From: a virus
Length of the DNA stretch: 33,800 bases
Reading direction: 5' to 3' (one strand)
Virus record (IMG/VR): IMGVR_UViG_3300037674_000276
Location: 1-33,800 of that record
In this document: one piece after another, positions 2,305-11,600 of the stretch
Numbering within the stretch: position 1 is the stretch's first letter
Layout of the letters: each line of letters opens with the position of its first letter
Position numbers and translations under genes: made by a program
Notes under the pieces: model-generated
What the model was told of the DNA's origin: nothing
Database searches by the model: none
What the model saw: only the letters and a program-made list of their open reading frames with translations

Positions 2305-2529
2305 ATGGAGATAAGAACGTCTTTGGATGAGGAGGATTGCGCTAAGGACTTCTGCGAAGAACTCAGGGGCTTGATGGAAATCCACGAGACTCGCGGGCTT
2401 GTCAGGAAAAGGATGGGGCAAGCTATGGTCGGGTTTGGCGCGGCCACACTCAGGGCTGAGTGCGATAAGAAAATTGATGCAGCTAGGATTTGCGAGAAGA
2501 CCATACACATCTGGTTAGAAAACGATTAA
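2305..2529 (+). CDS. Hypothetical helical protein, 74 aa
   Basis: Not recognised. The sequence is almost entirely predicted helix with alternating charges (EEDCAKDFCEELRGLMEIHE; LRAECDKKIDAARI). It starts at ATG 2305, with GGAAGG seven bases upstream inside the end of the preceding gene. A longer frame from 2257 exists but lies wholly within the previous gene. A GC-rich hairpin follows its stop, so it is likely the last gene of the first + strand transcript. Confidence 0.65.
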   Translation: MEIRTSLDEEDCAKDFCEELRGLMEIHETRGLVRKRMGQAMVGFGAATLRAECDKKIDAARICEKTIHIWLEND

Positions 2530-2530
2530 G

Positions 2531-2558
2531 CAGTCGCCGTTCCTTTCTTCGGCGGCTG
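2531..2558 (+). terminator. Terminator-like hairpin without U-tract
   Basis: CAGTCGCCG (2531-2539) pairs with CGGCGGCTG (2550-2558), with one U-G wobble and a pyrimidine-rich 10-base loop. It starts two bases after a stop codon and precedes a recognisable promoter at 2614. No run of T follows, so termination may be weak or factor-assisted. Confidence 0.4.
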
Positions 2559-2613
2559 TCGGGGCGGTTCAAGGTTTGTCATTCTTCCTTGGGCCGTCCC
2601 ACTTTCTTACCCA

Positions 2614-2642
2614 TTGACAGATACCTCAATATGGTACATACT
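2614..2642 (+). promoter_or_regulatory. Sigma70-like promoter, possibly leaderless
   Basis: A perfect -35 TTGACA (2614-2619) is followed after 17 bases by CATACT (2637-2642), which matches four of six -10 positions. Transcription would be expected to begin about 2649-2650. The ATG of the ribbon-helix-helix gene is at 2650 and no Shine-Dalgarno sequence precedes it, so the mRNA may be leaderless. The site lies in the first real intergenic gap of the + block, just after a hairpin. Confidence 0.55.
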
Positions 2643-2649
2643 ACTGCTT

Positions 2650-2841
2650 ATGGATAGTGAGACTAGCGCAGACATACCGAAGTTCCAGCCAGAGATAGTG
2701 CCCCGTGCGGGGCTTCATGTGAGGATTACCAAGGCACACCACACCAAGCTTGCAATGCTTGTGAGGGAGACTGGAAGGTCAAGGAGGGACATCATTGAGA
2801 TGTTGATAGACAAATCCAAGGTAGCCGCATACACAGAATAA
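2650..2841 (+). CDS. Ribbon-helix-helix (CopG/Arc-like) regulator, 63 aa
   Basis: A probable small dimeric DNA-binding protein. After a 25-residue tail, the segment LHVRITKAHHTKLAMLV reads as the beta strand plus first helix of a ribbon-helix-helix fold. RETGRSRRDIIEMLIDKSK supplies the turn and second helix. Such proteins bind short inverted or direct repeats and often repress their own promoter. Here a promoter sits directly upstream, and a palindrome lies 82 bases after the stop, before the nuclease/ERF genes. I infer, without proof, that this protein could act there. The start at ATG 2650 lacks a ribosome site. TTG 2614 is an in-frame alternative but would place the -35 box inside the gene. 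Confidence 0.65.
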   Translation: MDSETSADIPKFQPEIVPRAGLHVRITKAHHTKLAMLVRETGRSRRDIIEMLIDKSKVAAYTE

Positions 2842-2923
2842 CGGGAGGGGTTACGTCACGTTCTTCAGCGGGGTTCTCCAACCCCCACCTCCTTTACGGG
2901 CGTGACTCCTTCCACCATTTAAT
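2842..2923 (+). promoter_or_regulatory. Structured intergenic stretch with nested inverted repeats and a possible -10
   Basis: The gap after the regulator gene holds GGGGTT/AACCCC (2870-2875 with 2880-2885, loop CTCC), nested inside GTCACG (2855-2860) and CGTGAC (2901-2906). TTTAAT at 2918-2923 matches five of six -10 positions and abuts the palindrome at 2924. A poorer -35 (TTTACG, 2893-2898) has a 19-base spacer. The region may end the regulator transcript and start the nuclease/ERF transcript. No SD precedes the ATG at 2949. Confidence 0.35.
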
Positions 2924-2941
2924 AGGTTGATGCGTCAACCT
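2924..2941. promoter_or_regulatory. Palindrome copy 1 (operator or RNA hairpin)
   Basis: AGGTTGATGCGTCAACCT is an inverted repeat with arms of seven bases around TGCG. It is the first of three copies of the same element (others at 7437 and 29366), and its centre differs by one base. It directly follows a -10-like TTTAAT and ends seven bases before the ATG of the Holliday-junction-resolvase-like gene. A bound dimer here would cover the likely transcription start. Confidence 0.6.
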
Positions 2942-2948
2942 TTACACT

Positions 2949-3269
2949 ATGAACAGTAGAAACAAAGGAAAGCGTGGCGAGTTGGAGTGGCGGGATGTCA
3001 TCCGCTCACACGGTTACGAAGCAAGGAGGGGTCAGCAATTCTCCGGCAATCCAGATAGCCCTGATGTCGTGACAAACCTGCCCTACCACTTTGAGGTGAA
3101 GCGGGTGGAGAGACTTCAGATAGATAGTGCAATGAAACAAGCGGAAGGTGAGTGCGGGGAGAAGCCGCCAGTGGTTGCCCATCGTAAGAACGGTGGCCCT
3201 TGGATGGTGACGATGCTCGCGCCAACCTTCTTTGAACTGATAAAAGAAAGAAAGAACAATGCCAAATAA
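2949..3269 (+). CDS. Holliday-junction-resolvase-like PD-(D/E)XK nuclease, 106 aa
   Basis: A small nuclease expected to cleave branched DNA intermediates made in recombination or packaging. The PD-(D/E)XK elements are visible: Glu11 in GKRGELEW, Asp39 in DSPDVV, and Glu49-x-Lys51 in HFEVKRVE, followed by Gln64 in AMKQAEGE. Length and order fit the short archaeal/phage resolvase-like family. The ERF annealing protein gene overlaps its last 11 bases, so the two form a recombination pair, which supports the call. There is no ribosome site before ATG 2949; the palindrome at 2924-2941 takes that place, so expression may be leaderless or controlled by that element. Cleavage specificity cannot be read from the sequence. 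Confidence 0.75.
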   Translation: MNSRNKGKRGELEWRDVIRSHGYEARRGQQFSGNPDSPDVVTNLPYHFEVKRVERLQIDSAMKQAEGECGEKPPVVAHRKNGGPWMVTMLAPTFFELIKERKNNAK

Positions 3270-3825
3270 ACAGAACAGTGAGAATGATAAGCTACCAGCC
3301 GTGCTTGCAAAGGCGCAGATGGAGCTAAAGAAAGCGGTCAAATCCGCTGACAACCCCTACTTCAAGTCGAAATATGCGGGGCTAGATGAGGTGATTGAAG
3401 CCTGTCGTAACGTACTCAACAAGCACGGCATCGCCGTGACACAAACCGTGGAGTACACACCGGAATGCACCAAGCACCCCACGGACAGAGACCCCGTCAC
3501 CATCCCCCAGCAGACAGTCCTCGTGACTACCTTGCTCTACGGTGAGCAGTCCATCAGGAGTGTTATCCCCTTGGACTACAAGCGTGGCGATATGCAAGCT
3601 TTCGGGTCGGCACTTACTTATGGGAAAAGGTACGGGTTGGCCAGTATTTGTTGCTGCTCAACTGAGGATTCCCTCGACGATGACGGCAACAAGGCTGTCG
3701 GTGAAAAGAACGTAGCAGCTAAGGTCAACAAGCGCACCAACTACAAGCCCAAAGCTGGCGTTGCATCGACTGAAGAACTGAAGGAACTGGCAGCACAAGA
3801 CGCTGCTGATGACTTCCTTAAATAA
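3259..3825 (+). CDS. erf: ERF-family single-strand DNA annealing protein, 188 aa
   Basis: A phage recombinase of the ERF superfamily (P22 Erf type) that anneals complementary single strands during recombination and genome circularisation. Residues about 10-55 carry the family pattern: LPAVLAKAQMELKKAVK, NPYFKSKYAGLDEV, and NVLNKHGIAVTQ. Residues 100-140 hold the conserved core QAFGSALTYGKRYGLASICC. The C-terminal 50 residues are low-complexity and lysine-rich with an acidic end (DAADDFLK), as is usual for interaction tails. It overlaps the resolvase-like gene upstream and is followed 17 bases later by the RAMP-like gene. The ribosome site AGAAAGAAAGAA lies within the upstream gene. Confidence 0.88.
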   Translation: MPNKQNSENDKLPAVLAKAQMELKKAVKSADNPYFKSKYAGLDEVIEACRNVLNKHGIAVTQTVEYTPECTKHPTDRDPVTIPQQTVLVTTLLYGEQSIRSVIPLDYKRGDMQAFGSALTYGKRYGLASICCCSTEDSLDDDGNKAVGEKNVAAKVNKRTNYKPKAGVASTEELKELAAQDAADDFLK

Positions 3826-3842
3826 GGAAAGGAAACAATGCC

Positions 3843-4430
3843 ATGAAACTAAAAGTAATTGATATAAGTATCAAAGGAATAACCCCCTTGCTACAACACA
3901 GGTTCAGCGAAGCTGCTGAAGTGTCCGGCGGGAAGGCAACCAGAACAGTTGTCAGGACTGACGAAACCCCACGGGAATCTGCCGACAAGGTGTGCTACCG
4001 GAACAAGGAAGGTGAGTTCTATATGCCATCAACCTGCATCCACCGTATGCTCATTGAGGCTGGCAGCAACCACAAGCTCAAAGGCTCGCGCAAGTCAGCC
4101 AAGTATGTGGTGAGTGGCGCAGTCCAAATGACATCCGACTCAATCATCATCGGGAACGGTGACGGCAAGACACCCGCCAAGGACTTCGAGGTGGACAGTC
4201 GCCCCGTTGTAATCCCCGCAACCAAGGGACGCATCATGCGACACCGCCCAAGGTTCGATGACTGGTCAAGCAACTTCTCGTTGAGAATAAATGAAGACCT
4301 GTTACCGGAGGATTTCGTCCACCAGTTGCTCGATGAGGGCGGCTTGCAGGGTGGCATCGGAGACTTCCGCCCACAGAAGTTTGGCCCGTTCGGCACGTTC
4401 CTTGTGACTGGATGGAAACCCCAAGCCTAA
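3843..4430 (+). CDS. Phage protein next to ERF, RAMP-like glycine-rich loop, 195 aa
   Basis: Function unknown. The N-terminus (VIDISIKGITPLLQHRF) and the C-terminal glycine-rich stretch (EGGLQGGIGDF, then FGPFGTFLVTGW, about residues 166-191) resemble the first strand and G-rich loop of ferredoxin-like RAMP proteins such as Cas6/Cas7. That is a pattern resemblance only, and no CRISPR array or other cas gene is present. A central segment, MPSTCIHRMLIEAG, is helical, and RHRPRFDDW precedes the final region. AGGAAAGG lies upstream of ATG 3843, and the gene closes the ERF transcript before a terminator. Its position suggests a part in recombination, perhaps nucleic-acid binding, but that is inference from neighbours. 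Confidence 0.7.
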   Translation: MKLKVIDISIKGITPLLQHRFSEAAEVSGGKATRTVVRTDETPRESADKVCYRNKEGEFYMPSTCIHRMLIEAGSNHKLKGSRKSAKYVVSGAVQMTSDSIIIGNGDGKTPAKDFEVDSRPVVIPATKGRIMRHRPRFDDWSSNFSLRINEDLLPEDFVHQLLDEGGLQGGIGDFRPQKFGPFGTFLVTGWKPQA

Positions 4431-4435
4431 ATCAT

Positions 4436-4463
4436 CTGCGCCTCCGCTGGGGGCGCAGTCTTT
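4436..4463 (+). terminator. Rho-independent terminator
   Basis: CTGCGCCTCC (4436-4445) pairs with GGGGGCGCAG (4449-4458), a 10-bp GC-rich stem with one U-G pair and a three-base loop. TCTTT follows. It lies five bases after the stop of the 195-aa gene and directly before the pentamer array. Of the hairpins noted here it best fits an intrinsic terminator, though the T-run is short. Confidence 0.65.
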
Positions 4464-4464
4464 A

Positions 4465-4717
4465 GGTATGGTGCGGTATGGTAAGGTGCGGTGAGGTCAG
4501 GTAAGGCTCGGTAAGGTTAGGTATGGCAGGGTGGGATTAGGCGTGGTGGGGTAAGGCTGGGCAAGGTAAGGAATGGTTTATGAATTTAGTTCGGCATGGT
4601 GAGGCGTGGTGAGGTACGGTCAGGAGATGTCTGGTGTGGTAGGGTACGGTACGGCAACGTCTGGTGTGGTAGGGTACGGTACGGTCGGGTTAGGTAGGGT
4701 AAGGAATGGAATGGTTA
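4465..4717 (+). repeat. GGTNN pentamer array, 48 units in two blocks
   Basis: On the + strand the sequence runs with a strict five-base period. Block 1 is 4465-4579 (23 units) and block 2 is 4593-4717 (25 units), separated by 13 bases of unrelated AT-rich sequence (4580-4592). By my count, 45 of 48 units begin GG and 33 begin GGT; bases 4 and 5 vary (GGTAA, GGTAC, GGTGA, GGTAT, GGCAA and others). The period is not a multiple of three and no coding frame fits. The array lies between a terminator and the split nuclease gene. A protein-binding array, a recombination hot spot, or a G-rich RNA/DNA structure are the options I can offer; none is shown by the sequence. Confidence 0.9.
4629..4684 (+). 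repeat. 26-bp direct duplication within the pentamer array
   Basis: Positions 4629-4654 and 4659-4684 are identical over 26 bases, offset by 30 bases (six pentamers). This suggests the array has grown recently by duplication of a six-unit block, through slippage or unequal exchange. Elsewhere the units have diverged from one another. Confidence 0.85.
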
Positions 4718-4737
4718 CAATTAAAGGAAGTAAATAA

Positions 4738-4944
4738 ATGACAGAGATAAATCATAACGATAGGGCGCATCACCCTGACTTCCCCCCGTCATCGCTGCCA
4801 GCACTGGCAAAGTGTCCGTGCTATAAGTCATCGGATACGGTAGGGGAAGCGGCAAAGCGCGGAACAAGACTTCACGAAAAACTGGAGTCACTACTCAAGA
4901 GCGATGAACTTCGCAAGATAACCAAGAAAGACACAAGCAAATGA
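4738..4944 (+). CDS. N-terminal part of a Cas4/RecB-like PD-(D/E)XK nuclease, 68 aa
   Basis: The protein holds PPSSLPALAKCPCYKSS followed by GEAAKRGTRLHEKLESLL. This is the typical opening of Cas4/RecB-like nucleases: a Ser-Ser-Leu start, a Cys-Pro that can ligate an iron-sulphur cluster, and the GTxxHExLE motif I helix. The frame stops 20 residues later, before the catalytic Asp and the D/E-x-K motif. Those motifs appear about 1.1 kb downstream in the gene at 6047-6637. Together the two would give 264 aa, a normal length for the family. AAAGGAAG upstream of ATG 4738 is a good ribosome site, so this half is likely translated. It could be one subunit of a split enzyme or the remnant of a broken gene. 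Confidence 0.65.
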   Translation: MTEINHNDRAHHPDFPPSSLPALAKCPCYKSSDTVGEAAKRGTRLHEKLESLLKSDELRKITKKDTSK

Positions 4945-5204
4945 GAACACCTAACGAAATACGCGACAGCGCGGTGCGTTGCTTCAACCAGCTTGCGCCG
5001 GAAAAGTACGATGTCGGTCAAGCCAATAGTGAAGTCACCACCAACCTAGACCAACACCCCGACCTAGTTGGCGCACTCCGAGAAGAACTCATCGACGGCT
5101 GGTTCTACTTGGGTTCGCTGGCCGCTCAACTCGACGAGAAGGACGAGCGCATCACCAAACTTGAGGCAGAGGTTGAGCGGTGGAAGGAAAGGGCTAAGAG
5201 ATAA
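4941..5204 (+). CDS. Hypothetical phage protein with C-terminal coiled coil, 87 aa
   Basis: The N-terminal half (TPNEIRDSAVRCFNQLAPEKYDVGQ, then REELIDGWFYLGSL) resembles a small conserved phage family of unknown function. The last 30 residues (QLDEKDERITKLEAEVERWK) form a clear coiled coil, so it probably self-associates or binds a partner. Its ATG overlaps the stop of the nuclease N-terminal gene (ATGA) and its own stop overlaps the next start (TAATG). It is therefore part of a tightly coupled set of genes lying between the two nuclease halves. No catalytic motif is seen. Confidence 0.7.
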   Translation: MRTPNEIRDSAVRCFNQLAPEKYDVGQANSEVTTNLDQHPDLVGALREELIDGWFYLGSLAAQLDEKDERITKLEAEVERWKERAKR

Positions 5205-5581
5205 TGCCATACAATCCCGACTTTGATGTAGACCTGAAATTCGGAGAGAAGTTTGAAGGCTGCTTGGCTGACATACTTAACCGAGGGAAGGTCGAGGTAA
5301 AAACAGAGAGGGATTTATGGGCAGACACCGGCAACATAGCCGTAGAGATAAGATGCAACTCAAAGCCCAGCGGGCTGTCCGTTACCAAGGCAGACTACTG
5401 GGCGCACATAATGACAAAGGACGGTGACATTAAGTTCATCGTCATACTTCCAGTTATCACACTTAAAAGGAGGGTGAAACACCTATTAAACGCGAAGCAA
5501 GCAAACATAATACGAGGGGGCGAGAACGATGCCTCAGAGCTAATCCTGATTCCATTAAGCAAAGTCATAGGAAATAAATAA
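5204..5581 (+). CDS. Phage PD-(D/E)XK-like endonuclease, 125 aa
   Basis: Residues about 28-70 carry KVEVKTERD, a D/E-x-K catalytic element, followed by TGNIAVEIRCNSKPSGLSVTKADYWAH. This matches a compact phage nuclease-like family with a Lys/Thr-rich substrate loop. An upstream acidic residue in KFGEKFEGCLADIL could be motif I. The substrate is unknown; branched or foreign DNA are reasonable options. It overlaps by one base at each end with its neighbours (TAATG), showing translational coupling. It sits between the two halves of the Cas4-like nuclease and is itself a nuclease-like protein, so it could be related to how the insertion arose, as with homing endonucleases, though no homing family is recognised. 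Confidence 0.7.
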   Translation: MPYNPDFDVDLKFGEKFEGCLADILNRGKVEVKTERDLWADTGNIAVEIRCNSKPSGLSVTKADYWAHIMTKDGDIKFIVILPVITLKRRVKHLLNAKQANIIRGGENDASELILIPLSKVIGNK

Positions 5582-5787
5582 TGATACACAAAACAAAGTG
5601 CGTGGACTGCAATGACCCAATCGAAATAACCTTAAGCGACAGTGAACTCTCAGACGCAAAGGAGGTGGGCCTAAACCCTATGGTGTGGCTTGATAGGGTT
5701 ATCTGTCAGCGGTGTGAATACAAACGTGAACACGGAGGGAAGGCTCCGCCCTACAAACCCAAGGCAAGCGACTGGCTAATAGGATAA
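5581..5787 (+). CDS. Small zinc-ribbon-like protein, 68 aa
   Basis: Two CxxC pairs, CVDC at residues 8-11 and CQRC at about 42-45, are separated by an acidic helical segment (SDSELSDAKEVG). This pattern commonly binds one zinc ion. The C-terminus is basic and proline-rich (GGKAPPYKPKASDW). Such small phage proteins often contact nucleic acid or a protein partner, but the role here is unknown. The start overlaps the preceding stop (TAATG). The next small gene begins five bases after its stop. Confidence 0.65.
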   Translation: MIHKTKCVDCNDPIEITLSDSELSDAKEVGLNPMVWLDRVICQRCEYKREHGGKAPPYKPKASDWLIG

Positions 5788-5791
5788 CGCA

Positions 5792-5881
5792 ATGAGACTC
5801 CGAGACATTGAACTGTTGGCAGAGATACTAATAGCCCTGTCCTTCTTTGGCCTCGTAATCAAACTGGCATTATATATATGA
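5792..5881 (+). CDS. Very small membrane protein, 29 aa
   Basis: A 29-residue frame: a charged start (MRLRDIELLAE) followed by one hydrophobic helix (ILIALSFFGLVIKLALYI), long enough to span a membrane. It starts five bases after the zinc-ribbon gene and its stop overlaps the next ATG (ATGA at 5878-5881). This neat spacing in an otherwise empty 90-base gap supports translation. The role is unknown; early phage membrane peptides often act on the host envelope, but nothing here shows that. Confidence 0.5.
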   Translation: MRLRDIELLAEILIALSFFGLVIKLALYI

Positions 5882-6063
5882 AAGAAACTAAATTGGAGCA
5901 ATGGGAGAAGATTGCCTACACAATACTGGCTGACCCCAAGGCCAGTAGGAGTGAGGTCGACTGCGCCCTTACTGGAATTACTCAGAGCAAGAACACTTGG
6001 CTCAGGGAACAACTGCAACTCAAACGAACGAAAGCTTGGACTGCTAATGTCAAACAAATCTAA
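5878..6063 (+). CDS. Hypothetical protein, 61 aa
   Basis: Not recognised. The sequence (MKETKLEQWEKIAYTILADPKA, then ALTGITQSKNTWLREQL) is mostly predicted helix and basic at the end. Its ATG overlaps the stop of the 29-aa gene. Its last 17 bases overlap the start of the nuclease C-terminal gene at 6047. In the overlapping frame a longer form of the nuclease from 5912 is possible, but that extension is rich in Arg, Pro and Ser and unlike the family, so this 61-aa frame is the better reading. Confidence 0.55.
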   Translation: MKETKLEQWEKIAYTILADPKASRSEVDCALTGITQSKNTWLREQLQLKRTKAWTANVKQI

Positions 6064-6637
6064 ATACCCCAAGGAAGTAATCTGGGCAGCGCAATACATA
6101 CTGTCGGTGTGCGGCAGGAAGAAGCTGGTAACCGAGCAGAGGGTGGAGATAATGCGGGACGGGGTTCCCGTTTCATTCGGCAGCATGGACGCCTACTGCA
6201 AGGGCCACCTGTTCGACCTGAAGACAGGGCAGGTACGTGATTACAAGCAGCAAATGGCTGCATACGCATTGGGGGTTATGCAGAAGTTTGGTGACAAGAA
6301 GCTGACCTGCCACTTGGTTTACTCAAGATTCAAGAGAGCAGACACCTTTGACCTGACAATGACCGAGGCACAGGATATTGTTTACGGCATCATGGATTCA
6401 GTAAACGACCCAACAAGGTCGCCTTGGCCCTGTAGCTATTGCGCTTGGTGCGCTAGAAAAGAAAGCTGCACCGCCTTAAATCAATTCGCTTACACCGTCA
6501 CGGGCCAACTGGAAGCGATGAGGAAGATAAATCTCAATGGCCCGATTACCCCCGCCGTCCGTGAACGGCTTCTCTCCATAGTGAGTGCTTTGGAGGGGTG
6601 GGCGTGTCGAATCAGAGAGAAGGTAAACAAGGAATAG
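6047..6637 (+). CDS. C-terminal catalytic part of a Cas4/RecB-like PD-(D/E)XK nuclease, 196 aa
   Basis: This part carries the catalytic core of the family. FGSMDAYCKGHLFDLKTGQ supplies the motif II Asp and motif III D-x-K-T-G, and RDYKQQMAAYALGVM supplies the conserved Gln helix. The C-terminal cluster CSYCAWCARKESC has four Cys that could hold an iron-sulphur cluster. The opening MSNKSKYPKEVIWAAQYIL is where an intact homologue would continue from its motif I helix; that helix and the first Cys are encoded at 4738-4944. I choose ATG 6047 because upstream residues in this frame do not look like the family. In Cas4/AddB-like enzymes such proteins resect or trim DNA ends; near ERF, end processing for annealing is a natural role, by inference. 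Confidence 0.75.
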   Translation: MSNKSKYPKEVIWAAQYILSVCGRKKLVTEQRVEIMRDGVPVSFGSMDAYCKGHLFDLKTGQVRDYKQQMAAYALGVMQKFGDKKLTCHLVYSRFKRADTFDLTMTEAQDIVYGIMDSVNDPTRSPWPCSYCAWCARKESCTALNQFAYTVTGQLEAMRKINLNGPITPAVRERLLSIVSALEGWACRIREKVNKE

Positions 6638-6641
6638 TATT

Positions 6642-6935
6642 ATGCCTGAAGAAAACAAACGAAGCTACGTTAAGGTAGCAAAGAAAGCCTACCTGTATAA
6701 GAACGAAAAGAAACAGGAGGGAAGCAAGCAGCCGGATTACACTGGTAAGGTGGTTGAGCTTGACCTGAACGAACTCGGCGAGGTCGCCGATGAAGCGAAC
6801 AAAGTTACTCTGTCCCTTTCGGGATGGATTGAGGAAGACCAAGAAGGAACGAAGAGAGTTGGCATTCAAGTCCAGAAAGTTATTGGCGAAGCCCCCAAGG
6901 CTGTCGCAGCTGGAGCGGAAGCAGCACCCTTTTAA
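6642..6935 (+). CDS. Hypothetical protein, possible ssDNA-binding protein, 97 aa
   Basis: The protein has a basic N-terminus (KRSYVKVAKKAYLYKNEKK), a central beta-rich segment (YTGKVVELDLNELG; KVTLSLSGWIEED; RVGIQVQKVIG) and a flexible Ala-rich end closing in PF. A short beta barrel with a flexible tail ending in Pro-Phe recalls single-strand binding proteins, but the acidic residues usual in the last ten positions are nearly absent. I therefore give this only as a possibility. It starts four bases after the nuclease and is co-transcribed with it. The 84-base gap that follows holds only weak inverted C/G runs. Confidence 0.6.
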   Translation: MPEENKRSYVKVAKKAYLYKNEKKQEGSKQPDYTGKVVELDLNELGEVADEANKVTLSLSGWIEEDQEGTKRVGIQVQKVIGEAPKAVAAGAEAAPF

Positions 6936-7019
6936 TAAACACTAGGTCAACCAACCTCCCCTCTCCTTGGACGCGAACGCAGGTTCAGGGAGGGGGGAAT
7001 TTATGTAGAAAGAGAAACT

Positions 7020-7475
7020 ATGGAAAAGAAAACAAATAAAAAGGACAAGGAGCAATACGTTCCAAGCGAAGCGGAACTTACAGTAACACGAATGGCTGTC
7101 GTCGCATCGGCGATGGCCTTCGGTGTTGAGGCTGAAGACATACTCGGAAGGAGAAGAGGTAACGAGAAGATTACGATGGCAAGGATGACTTGCTACTGGC
7201 TGCTCCGCAAGATGGAGATGATGTCTTACGTTAGAATTGGAGCCGCCATTGGCGGCAAGCACCACGGTTCCGCGATGAACGGGTTCCGCAGAATCGAGTC
7301 AGAGATAGAGCTTAACCTCAGGGGTGGCTACATCACTTGCATAAGTGATGCCATTGATTACTACACGGACTTCCGCAAGGAACTCAAAAGGAAAGAGCTT
7401 GCCCGCAAGCGCAGGGAGTTTAGCAGTAACTCCGAAAAGGTTGATGCATCAACCTTGGAAGGAGCAACGCGATGA
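7020..7475 (+). CDS. Stand-alone DnaA domain IV-like DNA-binding protein, 151 aa
   Basis: Residues about 21-98 match the C-terminal DNA-binding domain of DnaA: RMAVVASAMAFGVEAEDILGRRR, then ARMTCYWLLRKM, then IGAAIGGKHHGSAMNGFRRI. The last corresponds to the DnaA signature GGRDHxTVxHAxxKI. There is no AAA+ ATPase domain. In bacteria this domain recognises DnaA boxes at the origin. A phage protein with it alone could mark a phage origin, compete at host boxes or act as a regulator. The last 40 residues are basic. The upstream ribosome site is weak (AGAAAGAG). Palindrome copy 2 lies within its last codons, just before the next gene, which looks like a replication protein. Confidence 0.75.
   Translation: MEKKTNKKDKEQYVPSEAELTVTRMAVVASAMAFGVEAEDILGRRRGNEKITMARMTCYWLLRKMEMMSYVRIGAAIGGKHHGSAMNGFRRIESEIELNLRGGYITCISDAIDYYTDFRKELKRKELARKRREFSSNSEKVDASTLEGATR
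7437..7456. promoter_or_regulatory. Palindrome copy 2 (operator or RNA hairpin)
   Basis: AAGGTTGATGCATCAACCTT is a perfect 20-base palindrome inside the 3' end of the DnaA-like gene, encoding KVDAST. It ends 15 bases before the ATG at 7472, with the GGAAGGAG ribosome site in between. The same core occurs at 2924 and 29366. Folded as RNA it would make an eight-pair stem with a TGCA loop near the ribosome site. Confidence 0.65.
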
Positions 7476-7981
7476 GTACGGAGTGGTATAAGAACAGCAG
7501 CACCCAGATGCATGACCCTGACATGGAGTACATTCAGTCCAATGACTCTGCCTCGTGTGCGGTCTGGGAGTGGGTTAAGGGTGAGTGCAGAAGAAACAAC
7601 TCTGACAAGCTTGACTTCCTCTCTGAAGACGAGGTTACAGTCGCGTCTAGGAGGCTGGGGATTGAGCCTGACAGGATGAAGAACATACTGAACCTGATTG
7701 TGTCTGTCGGATGGATAACACCTGACAAGCGTGTCCGGTCATGGGGCAAGTGGCAGACCAGCAGCCCAAGAAAGGGAAGCCCGCCAAGGAGTCGATGGGA
7801 ACGCAAGCAAGACTTGGAAGCCATTGATGAGCGAATGAAGGAACTGGGCTGGCACAGGAGCGAGGTAGCTGGAGGCGAGTATCGCTGGAGCAGCGAGAAG
7901 GCCAGAGCGGAATACTTTGAGCTAAAGAAACAGCGCAAGGCCATACAGGCCATGATGGTCGAGGAGGCTAAATGCTCCTAA
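7472..7981 (+). CDS. Winged-helix-like putative replication protein, 169 aa
   Basis: Residues about 25-95 (CAVWEWVKGECRRN, LSEDEVTVASRRLGIEPDRMKNILNLIVSVGWITPD, RSWGKWQ) resemble the N-terminal winged-helix region of phage replication-initiation or DnaD-like proteins. The aligned features are a Trp-rich first helix, a helix-turn-helix ending at GWI and a final wing. The C-terminal third is highly charged and helical. The family is not identified with certainty. It overlaps the end of the DnaA-like gene by four bases and has a strong GGAAGGAG site. It is the last + strand gene, and its final 14 bases overlap the end of the convergent - strand gene. Confidence 0.65.
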   Translation: MSTEWYKNSSTQMHDPDMEYIQSNDSASCAVWEWVKGECRRNNSDKLDFLSEDEVTVASRRLGIEPDRMKNILNLIVSVGWITPDKRVRSWGKWQTSSPRKGSPPRSRWERKQDLEAIDERMKELGWHRSEVAGGEYRWSSEKARAEYFELKKQRKAIQAMMVEEAKCS

Positions 7982-8234
7982 TCCCAGTGACACACCCCTT
8001 GGTGATTGCGGTTGCATCCACAGTAGGGTCTGCCTCCTTCTCGGAGTACAGGCTGGACGCTATCACCACAAACTCAGGGTAAACCTTGAGCAAGATTCCG
8101 CTGGTTACACACGGGCAGGGCTTCACCTTTGAAAGCTCACTCTGAACGTAGCCAGCGGGGTCTAACCATTCAACCTCAACCTGCTTACCTACCCAACTCT
8201 TTGGGAACTTGCTTCTAAATATTCTTCCACCCAT
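7968..8234 (-). CDS. Hypothetical protein, 88 aa, end of the late block
   Basis: Not recognised by function. The sequence (FPKSWVGKQVEVEWLDPAGYVQ; CPCVTSGILLKVYPEFVVIASSLYSE; ITKGCVTGIRSI) reads as a small beta-rich domain, as in small phage accessory proteins. I choose ATG 8234, with GGGAG before it. The longer frame up to 8354 runs through the coding part of the nuclease in another frame and is not plausible. The first 20 bases overlap the end of the nuclease gene. The last 14 overlap the convergent + strand gene, so the two transcripts would be complementary there. Confidence 0.65.
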   Translation of the reverse strand: MGGRIFRSKFPKSWVGKQVEVEWLDPAGYVQSELSKVKPCPCVTSGILLKVYPEFVVIASSLYSEKEADPTVDATAITKGCVTGIRSI

Positions 8235-8652
8235 CTTTATATTTCTCCCATTTGCATACCATAATGTTTCCCTTGCCCTTCCCTGCCGGAAAAAGAACAG
8301 CGGCGGAGAGGCTGCTGTTTCCGGCAGCCGATACTGGTATAATGTAGTACCCATCCGCTGAGATGTCAGGGTAATCCCTTGAGTAAGGCAGGAACAGAAT
8401 CAGGAAGTCACAGTCCTTTTTCTCGTATGCCCTTCTCTTTTTCCCTGCGCCATGAGACAGGCTGCACCGATAACTCCGATGCCTTGACATATTAGCCGTC
8501 TTAACTTGGATGCGTTTAATCGAGCCATCCTTCTCGGCTATTAGGTCGTAGGTGTCTGTATTCAAAGGCCAACTTACCGTGAACCCAAGCTCAACCAATT
8601 TCGACGCAACTGCAAGTTCTGCAACGCTCCCTGTTCTTGATGTATCTGCGAT
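8215..8652 (-). CDS. PD-(D/E)XK endonuclease (group I intron-associated type), 145 aa, apparent AUC start
   Basis: The protein matches the small endonuclease family linked to group I introns. It has GSVAELAVASKLVELGFTV (motif I Glu), YDLIAEKDG (catalytic Asp) and IQVKTA (D/E/Q-x-K), then CDFLILFLP and YYIIPV. The first usual start, TTG 8598, would remove the motif I helix. The frame is open back to a stop ten codons or so further upstream of motif I with no ATG, GTG or TTG. ATC at 8652, followed by GCA GAT ACA, has GGAGG eight bases upstream, exactly where an ATG would be expected. Either AUC is used, or a base has changed or been misread. It follows the 1881-aa gene closely. No intron is recognised nearby. 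Confidence 0.7.
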   Translation of the reverse strand: MADTSRTGSVAELAVASKLVELGFTVSWPLNTDTYDLIAEKDGSIKRIQVKTANMSRHRSYRCSLSHGAGKKRRAYEKKDCDFLILFLPYSRDYPDISADGYYIIPVSAAGNSSLSAAVLFPAGKGKGNIMVCKWEKYKDGWKNI

Positions 8653-8668
8653 GTTTCAATCCTCCACC

Positions 8669-11600
8669 CTATTTCTTGAGCCTACCAGATGGTTTCTCTG
8701 TGACCTCAAGCTTATCTAAATTATCTAAATTGATTGAGAAACTCTTGATGACTGCCCGCGCTTCCTTCTCGGTAGCATCCTCACCTAACCCAGCTAGGGC
8801 GATTAAGTCCTCCTTTGTCGGGCCACCCTTCTTGAGCATAAAGTTGTCAACCAAGTAATCACCTGCACTCCTTCTTGCCCCGCTATACATCTTCAAAACT
8901 TGCCTCACCTGCTCGTCTTGCTTCATATCCACCCACGCAGTATCCCCCCCTTCGTAACTGTTGCCTTCTTTTAGGAGAGCAGTCATACCTGCCCACTTGG
9001 GACTCTTGAAATGCTCAAGTTTGCCGGACAACTGCCACCTGCCCTCCTGTGGTGGCCCCTTAATACGGCGTAACCCAATCAACCTTTGGTAGACAGCGTA
9101 CTGGTCACGGTTAAGCTCGTAGTCCTCCTCGTCACGACTTATCTTCCGCCTTGGGATGGAGGGAGCAATGTCAGAGTTCCTTGTGTCCCGCCAGAGCCGC
9201 CAAATCTCTGAGGACTCGGCAGTAGGGATAATCTGACCCGTCTCAAAGACCCCAAAGGAACTGTGCAGGTAACGCTCAAAAGAGCTATCAGGGTTAACCT
9301 TCTTAATCCCCAGCAGCATCCCGCCTCTGCGAATCCTCTCAACAGGTTCCCCCCATAAATTAAATATAACCGGATTCTGTTCCCCAGCCTTCTCGCTCCA
9401 CTCGCCCTTGTTGTTAATCCAGTCCCACGCTATCATCTTCTTCTTCCAACTCAGCTTTAACTCGTCAGTAAACGTGTCGCTCCTGTAATTCCTGCGCCAA
9501 GGGTTATCCTTTGAGTTGTTGTAGAACCAGTCAAGGGTGTTGGGGATAGCAACCGCTGCCGCTCCCCTGGCCCACGGCTTAAAGAGTTCGCTGGGGGACT
9601 TTGTGCGAATCAACCCCTGAACAAAGTCTCTGGCGTTCTGGGCAAAGCTCTGGTTGAGGGCAAACCTAAACTTCTGCTCGCCAACGCCTAACATCAGGTT
9701 GCCAATGTTTTCACTAAAGGCCTCCCTCTCGCTTGCGGGCATCTTCTCCAGCATATCTTGGAATGATGACACCGCCAGCATTATATCACCAAGCGGCCCA
9801 GCCTTCTGGAGATTCGTAACCCTGTCGCCCTTCTGGTAAGCGGTGCTTTCTCCTTCCAGAAACCTCCCCAAAGCATTCCAGTTGATTGTTCCGTGCGGGA
9901 CAACCTCCGGAGACAGGTAAGCTACCGAACGCTTTTCATCCTCCATCCCCATCGAGTAATCAACAGAAATAATGTCAGTGCCAGTCATCTTCCTGATAGC
10001 GTTAACGCCAAAGTACGCGCCCAGTCCAGTTAAGACCCTAGCAGTTGCCATCTTCTTTTGAACAGTCCAGCCTTTTCCGTATGTTGGGTTCAGGGCAACG
10101 TCAACCACACCAAGCGGGGTGTAAGACAGATATTCCCCGACTATGTTTACCAATGTTTTCTGGTATGGAACAGTAGACCTGTACCCAGCGTAAAGCGTTC
10201 TCTTAACGCCCCCTTCCAGCCCACCCGTCTTCGGGGCGCGTAAGTAGTTATTAAGCTTCGCCAGATATTTTGTCGCCAAGTTCTCGTTCTGGAAGGTAGC
10301 CCTGTTGGCTTCGTTCCTGAGTTCAAGAAGCATCTTCTCACTGAACACTATCTCCGGAGCTTTTGTGGCTCTCTCAATCCAAGTGTCAGTCTTATCTCGC
10401 CCCCACCCCTTTGACCTGCCAAGCCTTGTTCCGTAGTTCTCCACCAATCGGGCAAACTCAGCGTGGCGGAACGGTAAGTCACCAGCCGCCAGTGCGCGGA
10501 ACATCAGGTTGGGGGCCACCCCTAGAGTTCCCTCCGCTAAATCCTTCAAGGTCTTCTCCGCCCCTTGCTTGCCTTCCTTGCTGCTGATTTGACGACCAAT
10601 TCTCTTCCACGCTCTCCAAGGGCTTAACGGACTCATCACAGTCTCCACTCCAGCCTCATACATATTTGCGCGTTGCCCGAACAGCAGGGAGCTTATCGCG
10701 TCATCATACCTGCGATGCTTAAAGGCTTGCCACTTCTCTCCCTTGGGGGCTTTTAGTGCCTCCCTGATTCTTTCCAAGCCCATCCCTTTGGTAAGCCCCT
10801 TAACCTTGGCTAACGTGCCTCTCGCGGGTTGGATTATTGTGTCGCTTATGATTTCTTTCTCGCGCCTAGCAATCTCTGCCGCTATGTCAGCGTATTCCGG
10901 AGACTCCTTATCCGCCATTGCCTCAAACTCCTCACGCAGCTTCTTCAACTCAGCCCTTCTTGCTGGCTTCCCAGTATAAAACTCGTGCATCAGGTCTAAC
11001 GCCCTAGTAGTCGCACGGCTTGGCGCACGGAGGAGCAAGGGAACAATGTTGCCGCCCACGTTCAGTACCAGCGTGGCTGGGGTCAGCAGGTTGCCTTGGA
11101 GTGCTGAAACATACAGGTCAGCCCATAGCTTCGGGCTGTGATTGGTCATAAACTCCCACTGGTCTCTTGACGCAGCCTCAGACTTCTGCAATTTCTCAAA
11201 CGCATCGTTAAAGTTTTCCTCTGTCGGTTCCCTTCTGTGCTTATCCTGTGCCTCCTTAAACTCCTTGATAGCGTCCATTGACTTCTCAACAAGACCTTCA
11301 AGCTCTGTCCTTTCCTTACCCTCAATCTCCTTGCCGCCAACGCTGTCCTTTAGGGTTTGGTTTATCTTATCTACGAGTATCTCCGGAGTGATGTGAGGGT
11401 TGTGCTTGAGGCTCTCAATCCTCTGCCCTAACTCAGTCGCATCACTTGCCCACTCCTGAAGAGATTTGGTGTATTCTTCCTTGAGTGCTGGCGCGTCAGG
11501 GTTGCCGCTCTTCTCAGCCGCCTTGTAAGCCTCATAGTTTAACTGAACCTTACGGCCATCGGTCATACTCTTCACGTTGGAGGGGATGCCTTCAGTCGCT

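Follow-up and report, generated by a model that had tools for sequence, protein, structure and literature searches.

A probable two-chain Cas4/RecB-like exonuclease encoded by separated genes of a phage recombination module

Introduction

Can a small nuclease domain with a single active site be supplied by two genes that do not touch each other? The question is raised by a 33,800-nt stretch of viral DNA (IMG/VR record IMGVR_UViG_3300037674_000276, positions 1 to 33,800; hereafter, the window), in which two open reading frames (ORFs), genes A and B, each with its own ATG start, carry different parts of what appears to be one Cas4/RecB-like nuclease. A gap of 1,102 nt separates the stop of A from the start of B. 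The original prediction, made from the letters of the window, offered three explanations: the halves assemble in trans, a splicing event joins them at the RNA or protein level, or the enzyme has been broken recently. Phage enzymes in pieces are known, among them Aeh1 NrdA, the T4 topoisomerase, and the 43A/43B DNA polymerase (PMC2988022), and other split phage RNR cases have been described (PMC3653736). We compared the locus with its relatives and conclude that A and B very probably encode two subunits, translated separately, of a single phage recombination exonuclease of Cas4/RecB-like type that assembles in trans.

Results

Nuclease motifs are divided between genes A and B

Gene A contains the segment PSSLPALAKCPCY, which includes C26 and C28, and the motif I helix RGTRLHE, in which H46 lies. 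Gene B contains GSMD (D48), FDLKTG (D57 and K59), QQMAAY (Q69 and Y73), and a cysteine cluster (C129/C132/C135/C141). All motifs of the RecB/Cas4 type, that is, I (His), II (Asp), III (D/E-x-K), and QhxxY, are found, distributed over the two genes. In alignments of the split clade, H46 of A and D48, D57-x-K59, Q69, and Y73 of B are invariant, as are C26 of A and C132, C135, and C141 of B. The iron-staple cysteine pattern, with one N-terminal and three C-terminal residues (C-x2-C-x5-C), is present across A and B. The placement of motif I and the first cysteine in the 68-aa gene, and of the catalytic residues and the cysteine cluster in the 196-aa gene, is therefore confirmed at the coordinates given in Table 1.

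Table 1 Genes of the recombination module in the window and the observations on which each assignment rests
Feature	Position	Strand	Basis or remark
RusA-like Holliday junction resolvase, module start	2949..3269	+	PHROG_244, E 2.4e-19; synteny in relatives
ERF-type ssDNA annealing protein	3259..3825	+	Pfam ERF, E 4.7e-22; PHROG_2324, E 1.8e-29; synteny in relatives
Gene A, 68 aa, N-terminal piece of nuclease	4738..4944	+	Homologue 5′ of B in 27/27 contigs covering both
C1, 87 aa, coiled-coil end	4941..5204	+	Start overlaps A stop (ATGA); in A-B gap in 22/24 split loci
C2, 125 aa, PD-(D/E)XK-like	5204..5581	+	PHROG_13596, E 4.8e-27
C3, 68 aa, Cys-rich, probably zinc-binding	5581..5787	+	Weak match to Pfam Phage_zn_bind, E 0.019
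C35, 29 aa, hydrophobic, probably membrane peptide	5793..5882	+	Family in 11/24 split loci
C4, 61 aa	5878..6063	+	3′ end overlaps B start by 17 nt
Gene B, 196 aa, catalytic core and C-x2-C-x5-C	6047..6637	+	Pfam DUF2800, PHROG_69, alignment to intact homologues
Probable ssDNA-binding protein, directly 3′ of B	6642..6935	+	PHROG_18154, E 0.001; synteny in relatives

Gene B matches the Pfam family DUF2800 (PF10926) over profile positions 82-281 of 368 (E 3.5e-8, above the cutoff) and the PHROG_69 exonuclease family from profile position 187 (E 3.4e-13). Because these matches begin at positions 82 and 187, the N-terminal part of the family is absent from B. Gene A matched no Pfam family. The Cas_Cas4 model was matched by the B gene of one related contig alone (L031, E 0.012, below its cutoff), and the B gene of the window was unmatched.

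Intact homologues identify the missing part. The search of annotated phages for homologues returned two Akkermansia phages only, Chambord and Chantilly, whose intact 387-aa exonuclease (WAK78991 and WAK79052) is ~30% identical to B. Concatenated A and B align through this exonuclease with no residues lost at the junction, in the order PSSLPALAKCPCY...AAKRGTRLHE from A, then IWAAQYI...FDLKTG...QQMAAYA...C-x2-C-x5-C from B, so that the halves abut without loss. Fused homologues from viral contigs (L072, L073, L032, L034, L061, and others) align to A and B likewise, and they identify the part missing from the B chain as the one encoded by A, which retains PSSxP, C, and GTxxH at the same place as the intact homologues. 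The N-terminal cysteine is absent from some fused relatives (L032 and L078), and, therefore, the predicted Fe-S cluster is not universal. In addition, B lacks the C-terminal ~85-110 aa that fused and overlapping relatives have, and tblastn of the window and 10 relatives found no third piece. A scan of genome contigs with the B alignment returned no relative, and hence no host or prophage was identified.

The split is conserved in related viral contigs

Scans of viral contigs yielded 27 related contigs that cover both pieces (from many metagenomes; some are near-identical), and in all of them (27/27) A is an ORF of its own upstream of B. Another four contigs break off before reaching one piece: the upstream side is missing from L017 and L060, and L042 and L053 end before B. 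Where both ends could be delimited, the gap between A and B ranges from 492 to 1,877 nt. Identity to the window is ~55-95% for B and ~62-93% for A. The recurrence of A and B as separate ORFs in 27 other contigs is far beyond chance. In the group in which the pieces are far apart, the median omega (Nei-Gojobori) is 0.21 for A (70 pairs) and 0.08 for B (44 pairs); both genes are under purifying selection in this group, and A is less constrained than B. Among relatives with overlapping A and B, the omega of A is 0.52, from few pairs (n = 5).

These data bear on whether the window holds a recently broken enzyme or a chimeric contig. The window is a metagenomic contig, and its B gene is without the C-terminal part of full-length relatives, both of which would fit such an explanation. 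However, the same arrangement recurs in contigs from many metagenomes, with B identity as low as ~55%; both pieces are under purifying selection; and adjacent or inserted states exist in other lineages. We consider decay or an assembly artifact extremely unlikely. The conserved split and the purifying selection exclude the recent breakage listed in the original prediction and bear out its remark that decay is not obvious.

The part encoded by A belongs to the Cas4/RecB fold

The fold was examined on the fused homologue L072 alone. The AF2 model of L072 (43 aligned rows) has a pLDDT of 88.4. The break corresponds to the loop at residues 70-81 of this model, between the helix at 50-69, which carries GTxxH, and the helix at 82-95. 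The model matches the AdnA nuclease (Z 12.9, rmsd 3.1, 185 aligned, model residues 26-220), Cas4 SSO0001 (4ic1; Z 11.1, rmsd 3.0, 160 aligned, model residues 21-222), and the Cas4-Cas1-Cas2 complex (Z 11.4), and also MGME1, RecE, and lambda exonuclease. All of these matches come from structure comparison; searches of PDB sequences with profiles yielded no useful hit. Because the aligned ranges start at residues 18-29 of the model, the part encoded by A belongs to the common Cas4/RecB fold.

In Cas4 SSO0001, the [4Fe-4S] ligands are Cys32, Cys188, Cys191, and Cys197 (PMC4176176), and the spacing of the last three is that of the B cluster. By analogy, we infer that A would give C26 and H46, and that B would give C132, C135, and C141 together with the DxK, Q, and Y residues. 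H46 would be the counterpart of the Cas4 histidine, as judged from the motif and the fold match.

Could B be sufficient, working or folding without A, with A kept for another job, such as that of a regulator or a DNA-binding peptide? Such a division of labor would agree with the separate translation of A and B, with their lack of adjacency in this clade, and with the weaker constraint on A. Yet A holds the motif residues of the intact homologues (PSSxP, C, and GTxxH), its part lies inside the common fold, and mutation of the conserved histidine (H80A) inactivates the Cas4 protein SSO1391 (PMC4176176). Moreover, a separate A never occurs without B where the contig continues. A lone A was found only with B downstream or at contig ends, which argues against the 68-aa protein being a separate family, and the lack of the N-terminal part of the family fold in B argues against the 196-aa protein being complete. 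B acting alone appears less likely because A keeps the motifs of the catalytic family and accompanies B everywhere, and we regard this alternative as quite improbable. The claim that one Cas4/RecB-like nuclease with its motifs kept is distributed over two genes is thus backed by both the intact homologues and the conservation of the split.

Small genes of varying content lie between A and B

Five small genes, C1 to C4, separate A from B in the window (Table 1). Across split loci, C1 and C4 flank a variable slot, and the gap often also contains C3 and a tiny hydrophobic ORF. C4 is directly 5′ of B in 24/24 split loci and overlaps the start of B in most of them; the 17-nt overlap in the window is likely to reflect translational coupling. 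The occupants of the slot between C1 and C4 are unrelated: the C2 family is found in 3 loci, a PHROG_18407/DUF5843-like family in 11 loci, a third family in 8 loci, and others elsewhere. C2 lies between A and B only in the window, L001, and L002; in L030 it precedes A, in L072 it precedes the RusA gene, and C1 likewise precedes the RusA gene in L031. Their presence at these other places indicates that C1 and C2 are independent genes that moved.

A D...(D/E)xK-like pattern can be discerned by eye in each slot protein, of which C2 alone was modeled. The AF2 model of C2 has a pLDDT of 66, and its best structural match, PvuII, is weak (Z 5.4). The five small genes of the original prediction are present, and its description of one of them (5204-5581) as another PD-(D/E)XK-like protein is hinted at by this weak match. 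The slot (5204-5581 in the window; same place in L003, L009, L018, and L021) may be a hotspot of nuclease exchange or a site of mobile endonucleases.

A related possibility is that the split in the clade of the window was caused by the insertion of a homing endonuclease, as in Aeh1, with C2 or its replacements as the invader; such an origin would be compatible with assembly in trans. The best-known phage precedents do involve homing endonucleases (PMC2988022), the slot holds several unrelated small proteins with PD-(D/E)XK-like signatures recognized by eye, and the C2 model is weakly PvuII-like. However, none of the scanned intervening proteins was recognized as a member of an HNH, GIY-YIG, or other homing family, overlapping forms of the pair carry no insert, C2 is found outside the slot in L030 and L072, and the insert in L071 is a 33-aa hydrophobic ORF rather than a nuclease. 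On balance, we consider a homing origin rather unlikely.

Intact, adjacent, and interrupted forms coexist

In seven more distant relatives (L031, L058, L064, L065, L066, L067, and L069), A and B are adjacent and share 8, 11, or 17 nt, with B starting in a different frame before A has ended; the C-terminal part of B is retained there. In L071, a 33-aa hydrophobic ORF (4900-5001) lies between the halves and overlaps both. The exonuclease gene is fused, with the RusA-ERF-exonuclease order unchanged, in L073, a near relative of L071, and in the related L072. Every break falls at one place, the loop that connects the motif I helix to the helix after it. As a separate observation, tiny hydrophobic, probably membrane, ORFs are found at the break in two lineages (L071, 4900-5001, 33 aa; window, 5793-5882, 29 aa).

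The far-apart form groups as one clade (support 100/99) in a tree of 51 rows. A larger clade of 34 rows (99/97) comprises the far-apart and overlapping forms together with L071-L073, and all rows outside it are fused. The constraint that all split forms make up a single clade was rejected (AU test, P = 0.0076); a clade of the far-apart and the seven overlapping rows was not rejected (AU test, P = 0.377). Because a single split clade is rejected, either two or more breaks occurred in the loop or one break was followed by re-fusion; under the first history, L071 may represent a separate break. Judging from these sequences, the gene was originally a single ORF, both pieces are retained under constraint throughout a large clade of phages, and intact, cut-adjacent, and cut-interrupted versions all survive.

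The overlapping and far-apart forms also bear on the idea that the halves end up in one continuous protein, whether by splicing of the RNA, through a split intein, or by a programmed frameshift or bypass during translation. There are precedents for phage genes broken up in association with inteins, introns, and homing endonucleases (PMC3653736, PMC2988022), and in L031 and L058 the two frames would become one if a +1 shift took place within the short overlap. Nevertheless, the overlaps of the adjacent forms have no common slippery site, and the window and 11 relatives gave no Rfam match. A ends ~5-35 aa past its last conserved motif in variable, non-homologous tails, and the first conserved helix of B follows its start by only a few residues, which leaves no room for intein halves. 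The gap of 0.5-1.9 kb encodes conserved genes, and its content varies. Joining of the halves is therefore very unlikely, and the splicing option of the original prediction is not supported, given the absence of an Rfam intron, the lack of room for an intein, the variable A tails, and the several coding genes in between.

The pair lies in a recombination module

The module has the order RusA-like resolvase, ERF annealing protein, A, the five small genes, B, and the probable SSB. Promoter and terminator scans of positions 2500-8700 gave results at chance level.

Several further features were observed in this part of the window. A gene at 3843-4430 encodes a 195-aa protein (PHROG_4652), and between it and A lies a degenerate pentamer array (GGNNN, mostly GGTNN; 4465-4717). 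Such arrays also occur in L022 (3406-4565, much longer at ~1.1 kb) and L053 (3630-3993). Long pentamer arrays were found only in loci that also carry the 3843-4430 gene, and shuffled sequence contains no such runs. The 195-aa protein is ~85% identical in L022 and L053, versus ~40-50% for neighbor genes. The gene and the array look like a mobile cassette and have probably moved horizontally as a unit. Downstream of the SSB gene, a 151-aa ORF (7020-7475), conserved in order among relatives, resembles by eye the C-terminal DNA-binding domain of DnaA. An ORF on the opposite strand (8215-8598, -), adjoining the recombination module, matches Pfam PDDEXK_5 (PF11645, E 2.5e-10).

Discussion

We propose an obligate two-chain nuclease in which A binds B in trans and thereby completes the PD-(D/E)XK fold. 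H46 of A would join the metal site, and C26 of A would ligate an Fe-S cluster together with C132, C135, and C141 of B; this cluster, with ligands on both chains, would staple A to B. The complex would then resect DNA ends for the neighboring ERF annealing protein and SSB. The most likely first step in its history would be a frameshift or small insertion in a permissive loop, which would leave two cistrons that overlap and are coupled in translation; the entry of small genes between them and the loss of the C-terminal part of B would have come later. A stronger version, which we put forward tentatively and regard as possible but doubtful, is that the split has been selected for and the loop broken repeatedly, with an obligate two-chain enzyme bridged by an Fe-S cluster of 1 + 3 ligands and with A setting when, or how much, activity forms in the course of infection.

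It is rare for a single nuclease active site to be split in nature, and in most cases the end state alone is seen. The coexistence of intact, just-cut, and cut-and-interrupted versions makes the path of a phage gene fission reconstructable and testable. If the Fe-S cluster is shared between the chains, the pair would be a natural two-part iron-staple nuclease and a model for cross-subunit Fe-S assembly, and possibly a natural split-nuclease tool. More generally, short phage genes without an assigned function may be missing pieces of enzymes, which profile searches miss, as they did with A.

A close parallel in gene arrangement is the NrdA of Aeromonas phage Aeh1, a DNA-metabolism enzyme whose two coding pieces flank another gene: nrdA-a and nrdA-b are split by mobE (Friedrich et al. 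2007, reviewed in PMC2988022). The two NrdA polypeptides form an active enzyme without splicing, as A and B would do here. Unlike in Aeh1, where the intervening gene encodes an HNH homing endonuclease, the locus described here involves a different enzyme and several small genes, none recognized as a homing endonuclease, and insert-free overlapping intermediates survive among its relatives. The topoisomerase gp39/gp60 of T4 (mobA) and the DNA polymerase 43A/43B of phages 25 and 44RR (PMC2988022) are likewise conserved splits of a single-chain ancestor with separately translated chains, and the 44RR 43A/43B split has no endonuclease inside (PMC2988022). The chains of both enzymes co-assemble (PMC2988022), and A and B may be expected to do the same. 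In contrast to the T4 and 44RR cases, the break between A and B divides a small nuclease domain, and with it a single active site and a single predicted Fe-S site (3 + 1 ligands).

With respect to the enzyme itself, the pair shares its family, its motifs, and its probable role beside an ssDNA-annealing protein with the exonuclease of Chambord and Chantilly and with other fused DUF2800/PHROG_69 exonucleases. In the Akkermansia phages, however, the gene is uninterrupted and the C-terminal part is present, whereas B of the window is without that part. Cas4 (SSO0001 and Pcal_0546) and the AddB and AdnA iron-staple nucleases have the fold of the fused homologue (Z 11-13), the catalytic motifs, and one N-terminal and three C-terminal cysteines. 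Unlike these single-chain proteins, the enzyme described here has two chains and no sign of CRISPR association. We found no report of a split phage exonuclease of Cas4/RecB type in the open-access literature. Relative to the known systems, what is new is the enzyme, a small nuclease domain cut between its Fe-S and catalytic residues, and the fact that a series of states survives.
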